A program made the position numbers and the translations under genes. The notes below the pieces were generated by a model. The model saw only the letters and a list, made by a program, of their open reading frames with translations, made no database searches and was not told the origin of the DNA. Positions 22,021-23,657 of a stretch of 32,401 bases of DNA are shown piece after piece. The DNA is from a bacterium. GTDB taxonomy: Bacteria > Patescibacteriota > Microgenomatia > Levybacterales > UBA12049. Within the stretch, counting starts at the first letter, position 1. Each line of letters starts with the position of its first letter. The stretch is from positions 1 through 32,401 of the forward strand of contig JAKALS010000006.1 of NCBI GenBank assembly GCA_021813145.1, given 5' to 3'.

Positions 22021-22032
22021 CCAATAAAAAAG

Positions 22033-22103
22033 CAGGCCAGGAGGGAATCGAACCCCCAACAGAGGTTTTGGAGACCTCAGTTATACCATTTAACTACTGG
22101 CCT
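22033..22103 (-). tRNA. tRNA-Trp (CCA)
   Basis: Cloverleaf AGGCCAG...GAGGT CTCCAAA ACCTC...GGGGGTTCGATTCCCTC CTGGCCT G, followed by T-run. Confidence 0.96.
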
Positions 22104-22108
22104 ACAAC

Positions 22109-22285
22109 TTATTTAAGTTTTTCGCTCTCTTTGTGCTCGGTTACCTTCTTACAATGCTTGCAGAATTTTTTTAGTAATAATTTCTCTTCGGTATTAATTT
22201 TATTCCTGGTTGTGACATAATTTCTGTTTTTGCAAACAGTGCACACCAAGCCTAGTTTTACTCTGTGTTCACCTTTTTTTGGCAT
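22109..22285 (-). CDS. rpmG: 50S ribosomal protein L33 (four-Cys form)
   Basis: Translates as MPKKGEHRVKLGLVCTVCKNRNYVTTRNKINTEEKLLLKKFCKHCKKVTEHKESEKLK* (58 aa, below the ORF-track cutoff). Confidence 0.96.
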   Translation of the reverse strand: MPKKGEHRVKLGLVCTVCKNRNYVTTRNKINTEEKLLLKKFCKHCKKVTEHKESEKLK

Positions 22286-22322
22286 TTCAACATCCTCCTT
22301 TCATAATATTATATCAAAATTG

Positions 22323-22394
22323 AGCCTAGAGAGGGAATCGAACCCTCGACTTCCAACTTACCAAGTTGGCGTTCTGCCACTGAACTACCTAGGC
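22323..22394 (-). tRNA. tRNA-Thr (GGU)
   Basis: GCCTAGG...CCAAC TTGGTAA GTTGG...GAGGGTTCGATTCCCTC TCTAGGC cloverleaf. Confidence 0.96.
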
Positions 22395-22996
22395 ATCACG
22401 TTTAATTTATCTAATTCTTGCATTATCCAATATTTTAATTTTGTGTTAGAAACTTCAACCGTACAAACCCCGTAATTTGACTTTCGTCTATAACTCCCTT
22501 TACCTTGAGGTGGAATTTGCACTATTTTACCAAATTTTTCTTCTGCTATGTTAAGCTCTTTTGCCCAAAACTCTTTCGCTTCCTCCGGATTACTATCGTT
22601 AAAACAAATTAAATAATAGTGTAACCTGGAGGGCAAAACCTGACAATTTATAGTTAAAAAATCACGAAAAGTCCTTAGTAAACTGGGGTTGGTATTGGCG
22701 ACTCGAACATGCCCTTTTGAAGTTTTTTCTCCTTCCCCCCAATATATGCCTAAACCTAAACCATATAAAAACTTTTCTTGATAATTCATGTTATCTTTAA
22801 TTTTAAAAGGGTCACCATTGGGATTTGATTTAACGTATATCGCTTGACTCATTGTTCTCCTTTTAATTCCATATTTAGTCATCCAATATACAATTTTATG
22901 CGTGGAACATTTTAATAACGTAGAAATTTCGGTCATTGATTTACCCGAACTATAAAGGTCTTCTAGCTCTTCTTTTAACAACCTCGTTGTATTCAT
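22385..22996 (-). CDS. Putative LAGLIDADG-like homing endonuclease with N-terminal HTH
   Basis: HTH-like LKEELEDLYSSGKSMTEISTLLKCSTHKIVYWMTKYGIKRR, then LYGLGLGIYWGEGEKTSKGHVRVANTNPSLLRTFRDFL. ATG at 22996. Stop TAG lies inside tRNA-Thr(GGU). Confidence 0.55.
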   Translation of the reverse strand: MNTTRLLKEELEDLYSSGKSMTEISTLLKCSTHKIVYWMTKYGIKRRTMSQAIYVKSNPNGDPFKIKDNMNYQEKFLYGLGLGIYWGEGEKTSKGHVRVANTNPSLLRTFRDFLTINCQVLPSRLHYYLICFNDSNPEEAKEFWAKELNIAEEKFGKIVQIPPQGKGSYRRKSNYGVCTVEVSNTKLKYWIMQELDKLNVMPR

Positions 22997-23018
22997 TATT
23001 TTTGGTATAGCTGGGGAT

Positions 23019-23047
23019 ATTATAGAACTATTTATGCCAAAAATCAA
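23019..23047 (-). promoter_or_regulatory. Promoter for the HTH/LAGLIDADG-like ORF
   Basis: Minus strand TTGATT (23047-23042), 17-bp spacer, TATAAT (23024-23019). Confidence 0.6.
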
Positions 23048-23082
23048 AAATAGTACCAGGTAAAAACTCTTAATTTATCTTG

Positions 23083-23167
23083 TGCTGAGGGAGAGATTTG
23101 CACTCCCGTAGCCCTTTCGGGCGCCTCGTCTACAGCGAGGTGCGATTGACTACTCCGCCACCTCAGC
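23083..23167 (-). tRNA. tRNA-Tyr (GUA), long variable arm
   Basis: GCTGAGG...CCTCG CTGTAGA CGAGG, variable arm GCCCGAAAGGGC, T-arm GGGAG TGCAAAT CTCTC, CCTCAGC A. Confidence 0.95.
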
Positions 23168-23537
23168 ATTTATATTCATTCCAACTTTTATTTCCAATCA
23201 TGATTTGAGACCTTTTTTGAACTTTTTCAGCTGGTATTAAATACCTTGTCTTATTTCCGCAATATATAAAAAGCAAATCAAAATCCCCGTCTTTATACTT
23301 TGTATGATAGGTCTTTTCTCGATATCCTCCAAATGTTCTTAAATCCACTATATATCCTCCTCCGGGTCCTATGTCATTTGAATACTTGCATTGGACTCTA
23401 TTGAGAATACCTTCTCGATCAACAACCAAATCGTATTTATCACAATCAGAAACAGGAATAAATACTGAATAGTTCTTATTTACAAAAAACACGATTGCTT
23501 CAGCAATTGCGAGACTTCCCTTTCTTTTACTATTCAC
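23163..23537 (-). CDS. Putative PD-(D/E)XK endonuclease, resembling the PDDEXK_5 / I-Ssp6803I-type family
   Basis: KRKGSLAIAEAIVFFVNKNYSVFIPVSDCDKYDLVVDREGILNRVQCKYS: E...D-x12-QxK-type core. GTG start at 23537. Stop TGA lies inside the tRNA-Tyr acceptor stem. Confidence 0.65.
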   Translation of the reverse strand: MNSKRKGSLAIAEAIVFFVNKNYSVFIPVSDCDKYDLVVDREGILNRVQCKYSNDIGPGGGYIVDLRTFGGYREKTYHTKYKDGDFDLLFIYCGNKTRYLIPAEKVQKRSQIMIGNKSWNEYKC

Positions 23538-23548
23538 ACCATCATCCT

Positions 23549-23567
23549 ACTTGGTAGCAAACCAAGT
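23549..23567 (-). other. 7-bp perfect hairpin between tRNA-Thr(UGU) and the PD-(D/E)XK ORF
   Basis: Minus strand ACTTGGT-TTGCT-ACCAAGT directly upstream of the AGGATGATG RBS region. Confidence 0.6.
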
Positions 23568-23585
23568 GTCAAATAGCTTTACATG

Positions 23586-23657
23586 AGCCGACTGTCGGAT
23601 TTGAACCGACGACCTTTGCTTTACAAAAGCATTGCTCTACCACTGAGCTAAGTCGGC
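23586..23657 (-). tRNA. tRNA-Thr (UGU)
   Basis: GCCGACT TA GCTCAGTGGTAGAGC A ATGCT TTTGTAA AGCAA...GTCGGTTCAAATCCGAC AGTCGGC T. Confidence 0.95.

Follow-up and report, generated by a model that had tools for sequence, protein, structure and literature searches.

The free-standing GIY-YIG enzyme SegB of phage T4 has a tRNA intergenic region as its target, and the reported outcome is preferred inheritance of the tRNA gene region (PMC2988022). In collaborative (trans) homing, a free-standing enzyme and an ORF-less intron have a common target (PMC2988022, PMC3984707). Homing endonucleases have been noted between rRNA genes in CPR genomes (PMC8172020), and the LAGLIDADG enzymes of the I-ShaI group, from CPR rRNA introns, match Pfam LAGLIDADG_1-3, with same-site enzymes related across distant hosts (PMC11270868); the terms free-standing and intergenic are absent from the text of that report. 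I-Ssp6803I, a PD-(D/E)XK enzyme of a tRNA intron, is known to target a tRNA gene in its anticodon region. Tyrosine-integrase elements also target tRNA genes, which are complete afterwards.

The locus described here shares features with each of these systems. As with T4 SegB (PMC2988022), a free-standing nuclease gene lies between tRNA genes and has a promoter-like site upstream; unlike segB, the genes are cellular, encode other folds and extend into the 5′ end of the tRNA, every clade is restricted to a single tRNA, and the apparent break points fall in the anticodon loop. As with tyrosine-integrase elements, a tRNA gene would be the target and is complete afterwards; unlike them, the element lies 5′ of the tRNA and consists of a single nuclease gene, with neither an integrase gene nor att repeats found and only a nuclease ORF between the tRNAs. 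In the open-access PMC literature, no account of nuclease genes docked on tRNAs in CPR was found; that absence is weak evidence. Free-standing homing endonucleases being known already, we rate the tRNA-docked CPR arrangement as an apparently undescribed variant of intronless homing. Our reading of the two ORFs described below, to which we give a probability of roughly 0.75, is that each is a free-standing homing endonuclease gene, independent of the other, with ORF A docked on tRNA-Tyr and ORF B on tRNA-Thr(GGU).

Two predicted nuclease genes in a tRNA cluster

The window (the whole stretch of DNA analysed, 32,401 nucleotides) carries on its minus strand, in this order, tRNA-Thr(UGU) (23585..23657), ORF A (23163..23537), tRNA-Tyr(GUA) (23082..23167), ORF B (22385..22996), tRNA-Thr(GGU) (22322..22394), rpmG (22109..22285) and tRNA-Trp (22032..22103). 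The first tRNA of the cluster, the upstream neighbour of ORF A, was called by ARAGORN and by Rfam (RF00005, 73 bits). The TGA stop of ORF A forms positions 3-5 of tRNA-Tyr, its docking tRNA, and the TAG stop of ORF B forms positions 8-10 (U8-A9-G10) of tRNA-Thr(GGU), on which ORF B is docked and which is present once among the 43 tRNA genes of this genome (G000). The ARAGORN and Rfam calls and the coordinates bear out the gene order given in the preliminary description and its claim that each ORF stops inside the next tRNA. Its further statement that no intron interrupts the tRNAs here holds for the window; in relatives, the docked Thr(GGU) gene is often intron-bearing. Downstream of the preceding tRNA and ahead of the start codon, both ORFs have a promoter-like site on the minus strand, recognised by consensus match only: TTGACA-N17-TAGGAT (23544..23572) for ORF A, which recurs at the same position in two relatives (G012 and G033), and TTGATT-N17-TATAAT (23019..23047) for ORF B. 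Elsewhere in the window, positions 1-725 hold a partial 16S rRNA gene, also on the minus strand, interrupted by the contig end.

ORF A encodes 124 amino acids from a GTG start and is a PD-(D/E)XK nuclease of the I-Ssp6803I type. It matched PF11645 (PDDEXK_5) with E=1e-24 and 87.6 bits (cut-off 26.1) and the solved I-Ssp6803I structure 2OST with E=8e-10, which confirms the fold first proposed for it. All three catalytic residues of the D..QxK motif (D36, Q49 and K51), invariant in alignment A4, are present. In the same alignment, ORF A deviates from the common residues with S8 and I11, D8 being common among relatives, and there is an E at 13. E11 is also missing in other tRNA-docked members of the family; an acidic residue at this position we take to be a feature of the I-Ssp6803I prototype. 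Eight of 13 ORF A relatives abut tRNA 5′ ends and three lie, like the prototype, inside tRNA introns (L039, L041 and L044), two of which were confirmed as group I; unlike the prototype, ORF A itself is outside any intron, upstream of an uninterrupted tRNA-Tyr. G012 and G033 have orthologues of ORF A in the same Thr(UGU)-Tyr gap.

ORF B, of 203 amino acids, probably starts at the ATG at 22996 and not at the TTG at 23047, because its homologues begin at that ATG and the promoter-like box occupies 23047-23019. Pfam and NCBIfam assigned it to no family and gave only weak HTH matches. The Pfam LAGLIDADG models did not match ORF B (one relative matched PF03161 at E=0.045), and a profile sequence search of the PDB returned HTH-type matches only of note. 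An AlphaFold2 model built from 73 relatives (pLDDT 93.4) predicts an HTH domain followed by an alpha/beta domain, with a helix (71-87) that terminates in an invariant E87-G88 (model numbering), as in LAGLIDADG enzymes. In Foldseek comparisons with viral models (BFVD), the top-ranking matches included several endonucleases and LAGLIDADG proteins; comparisons with the PDB gave the LAGLIDADG intein 7QSS (probability 0.93) and also 1MOW, with OmpA-like proteins ranking higher and no match at E<1e-3. Given the helix and the BFVD matches, but no PDB match below 1e-3, we term ORF B only LAGLIDADG-like, and with this qualification the domain composition proposed earlier stands. On the predicted model, ORF B looks like an HTH plus LAGLIDADG-like nuclease of an undescribed family. 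It resembles the I-ShaI group in its single, predicted LAGLIDADG-type domain, in its broad hosts and in the kinship of same-site enzymes across distant hosts, and differs in having an N-terminal HTH, in lacking a Pfam match, and in being free-standing and tRNA-docked.

A check for a nuclease fold was proposed at the outset; both proteins look like nucleases, ORF A by its PF11645 and 2OST matches and ORF B by its predicted model and the viral matches of that model. Values of dN/dS were 0.12-0.16 for ORF A within the family and about 0.11 between the two Levybacteria homologues of ORF B, with synonymous sites near saturation; both ORFs appear to be maintained as proteins under purifying selection.

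Docking of predicted nuclease families on tRNA genes

An unbiased protein search detected ORF B relatives in 135 of 374 class genomes, about a third. The preliminary description had asked whether related ORFs elsewhere also abut tRNA 5′ ends; at 106 of the 110 loci inspected, the ORF does end where a tRNA gene on the same strand begins. Among the best 70 places, 69 end within −39..+99 of such a 5′ end, and 37 of 40 weaker relatives end within −110..+120. By chance, an ORF end would fall in the −39..+99 interval in about 0.3% of cases (43 tRNAs × 139 bp/(2 × 954,117 bp)), so that docking at tRNA 5′ ends is far above chance. At two of the other three weaker relatives, the locus contains group I-like intron matches, which suggests that tRNAs were overlooked there by ARAGORN. 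A scan of contigs, for which the broad alignment A2 yielded no pattern, gave 80 named loci, in Patescibacteria and in a small number of bins that carry the labels Omnitrophota, Chloroflexi, Actinomycetota and Deltaproteobacteria; nearly all of them end at or within tRNA-Thr(GGU). The commonest stop at these loci is the TAG at tRNA positions 8-10 (38 of 69). At six loci (L195, L200, L171, L196, L206 and L176) the frame of the ORF B homologue crosses the entire downstream tRNA-Thr(GGU), and the tRNA gene doubles as coding sequence for the protein C-terminus.

In a tree of 139 ORF B proteins (support given as SH-aLRT), the docked tRNA tracks the clades: Thr(GGU) (79 rows, support 94), Ile(UAU) (24 rows, 99), Gly (11 rows, 99), Tyr (6 rows, 99) and Arg(CCU) (6 rows, 100). 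Host labels are mixed on this tree, and Peribacteria and Levybacteria are among the host groups forming clades, so that much of the inheritance may be vertical.

The genome of the window contains further, truncated relatives of ORF B. These relics lie on contig C6, upstream of tRNA-Ala(GGC) (near 139624), tRNA-Met(CAU) (82662) and tRNA-Arg(CCU) (169604-169738) (L290, L292 and L291), and each best matches a family member docked on the same tRNA elsewhere (E=8e-27, 3e-16 and 3e-7, respectively). Homing genes typically invade and then decay. Nucleases of other folds were found at equivalent sites: an HNH ORF (L014:1798-2408) fills the Thr(UGU)-Tyr gap in G013, the place of ORF A in the window, and GIY-YIG ORFs occupy tRNA sites at L218, L220 and L221.

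Empty sites, exchanged tRNAs and traces in the anticodon arm

The tRNA order Thr-Tyr-Thr-rpmG is kept across the host family, most other members of which have short gaps at this cluster. In the congener G001 the cluster reads Thr(UGU)-46 bp-Tyr-4 bp-Thr(GGU)-rpmG, without ORF A and ORF B; the empty gaps sought in close relatives thus exist, and the ORFs are not present at this position in all relatives. Presence and absence at the same site were found in two same-genus pairs, G000 versus G001 and G545 versus G583. In the first pair, Thr(GGU) is only 62% identical, as against 92% for the neighbouring Tyr and 86% for Thr(UGU). The Thr(GGU) type of G001 is common in the host family, and the closest match to that of the window is an ORF-B-bearing Amesbacteria locus (86%). 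In the second pair, Gly(GCC) is identical at 60/75 positions (80%) between the occupied G545 and the empty G583, and Phe at 74/74 (100%). Judged from these identities, the docked tRNA was swapped in both pairs, as in co-conversion of flanking DNA. The swap is not universal: two Levybacteria loci whose ORFs are nearest to ORF B (L134 and L135) retain the local tRNA type, and tRNA-Tyr at ORF A is of the unchanged family type. A Thr(GGU) resembling that of the window also occurs in G006 and G028, family members that lack ORF B.

At a handful of loci outside the window, a displaced tRNA 5′ half lies upstream of the ORF. An Arg half breaks after position 37 (L100), an Ile half after CUUA, inside the anticodon (L069), and another Ile half in the anticodon loop (L096). 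A gapped search for displaced halves placed 5 of 145 loci above the 99.9th percentile of shuffles (0.15 expected), few of them convincing: L184 and L143 are doubtful, the former match sitting in apparent coding sequence, and the match upstream at L204 resembles a whole decayed tRNA. An ungapped search for systematic tRNA 5′ copies upstream of the ORFs gave a weak excess only. In G659 and G701 (L218:1500-2300 and L221:1500-1960) the order is displaced tRNA-Gly 5′ half, 14-bp palindrome GTCGCCGCGGCGAC, GIY-YIG ORF and complete tRNA-Gly. The palindrome stands in place of the anticodon arm of the displaced half and is identical in the two genomes despite their different tRNA-Gly sequences.

Introns mark the same part of the tRNA. 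Of the roughly 75 Thr(GGU) loci with ORF B, about 32 (L155:3136-3330 and 31 others, alignment A6) have an ORF-less intron of 175-221 nt directly after U36. Rfam RF00028 misses these introns even at E up to 5 and no Rfam model detects them; we call them group I-like on the basis of the consensus AAGACCGU..GACUGACAAGGG..AAGAUACAGUC, the insertion after U36 and a terminal G. ARAGORN often assigns the intron-bearing Thr(GGU) genes wrongly to Arg, His or Ala. When 362 phylum genomes were searched with a covariance model of the intron, 16 had strong matches; an ORF B relative lies upstream in 7 of these, and none is visible in the other 9. The intron and ORF B are separable yet enriched together, which is suggestive only, as the two samples differ. 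Docked Thr(GGU) genes with an ORF-less intron recall collaborative homing; unlike that system, the window is intron-free, and any target common to enzyme and intron would be hypothetical here. Together, the displaced halves, the Gly palindrome loci and the U36 introns point to the tRNA anticodon arm as the predicted cut region.

Proposed mechanism and alternative explanations

All the tests made agree with the view that these are minimal mobile elements or free-standing homing endonucleases, docked at the 5′ ends of tRNA genes. We propose that the nuclease is expressed from the promoter-like site just described, which follows the preceding tRNA, and would cut the homologous tRNA gene, in the anticodon arm, in DNA without the element. 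The 3′ side of the break would pair with the donor tRNA, and repair would copy leftwards through the 5′ part of the donor tRNA and the nuclease gene, while the left side would be joined to the old 5′ half or to intergenic DNA. The expected product is an old 5′ half, soon lost, followed by promoter and nuclease and then by a complete tRNA. An essential single-copy tRNA would stay functional, the nuclease gene would be fixed upstream of it and in line with it, and the resident tRNA could be exchanged for that of the donor. A cut in the anticodon arm with one-sided copying would explain why order and orientation are fixed, why the ORF runs into the tRNA, and how the displaced 5′ halves and the swap arose. 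Cleavage, the exact cut site, the repair path, present activity and the avoidance of self-cutting are all inferred. The earlier wording is amended in two respects: insertion at tRNA 5′ ends is right as to docking, but the break point apparently lies inside the tRNA, and restoration of the tRNA describes ORF A, where the Tyr gene is unchanged, but not ORF B, where Thr(GGU) departs from the resident type over the entire gene.

The ORFs could instead be host genes co-opted for tRNA biology, as transcription regulators, processing factors or intron maturases beside the tRNA that they serve. The HTH domain of ORF B, the purifying selection on both ORFs, the host groups that form clades and the group I-like introns of about 32 docked Thr(GGU) genes would all suit such a role, and some LAGLIDADG proteins are maturases. 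We nevertheless consider it improbable. The ORFs are missing from the congener and from most relatives, most docked tRNAs are intron-free and 9 of the 16 strong intron carriers have no ORF B upstream; PD-(D/E)XK, GIY-YIG and HNH ORFs take equivalent places, and decayed copies persist next to intact tRNAs. Absence from the congener also bears on the reading that these are ordinary, vertically inherited genes, located by coincidence within a conserved tRNA cluster, which the conserved Thr-Tyr-Thr-rpmG order and the host-group clades might favour. That reading, which we find scarcely credible, is already contradicted by the empty site, by family members at many unrelated tRNAs with differing neighbourhoods, and by clades that track tRNA identity.

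The divergence of the docked Thr(GGU) in G000 and Gly in G545, together with break points in the anticodon loop, could also mean that the proteins cut the tRNA itself and that the diverged tRNA next to each gene resists them, as toxin and antidote. Yet the docked Thr(GGU) is the sole isoacceptor copy in G000, leaving no sensitive copy to protect; the folds match DNA nucleases, displaced DNA 5′ halves require a DNA break, and L134 and L135 retain a local-type tRNA. We regard this possibility as very unlikely.

For homing endonucleases docked in this way, self-protection could come from introns at some loci and from sequence change at others; many carriers show neither an intron nor an obvious sequence change. 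Immunity through a changed D-arm (D-stem GUUC/GAAC in the window) was considered and rejected, L134, L135 and many Paceibacteria carriers having GCUC/GAGC.

A broader proposal, whose chances we judge to be even, is that Patescibacteria harbour a widespread and so far undescribed class of selfish genes that home into tRNA genes at the anticodon loop, one-sided copying bringing along their own tRNA. HTH-LAGLIDADG-like lines would each be tied to one isoacceptor, at least three more folds (PD-(D/E)XK, GIY-YIG and HNH) would converge on the same way of life, and essential single-copy tRNAs would be replaced across lineages, sometimes with an ORF-less group I-like intron. If so, selfish nucleases of four or more folds would constantly contend for the tRNA genes of a huge bacterial group, and a tRNA could move horizontally as the passenger of a docked nuclease. 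This would offer a way in which tRNA genes turn over and would make available many enzymes that each cut a particular tRNA gene; it would also supply a natural system for testing how an ORF-less intron and a free-standing enzyme arrive at a common target.

Four further loci stand apart. The only relatives of ORF B found on viral contigs (L213 and L214, IMG/VR contigs of 497 and 372 kb) have no same-strand tRNA directly downstream and have tRNA-Asn genes nearby on the opposite strand. At L217 and L219, the docked tRNA-Gly has an unusual D-loop, AGCAGUAG, and a T-loop of UGCGA or CGCGC in place of the usual conserved bases.
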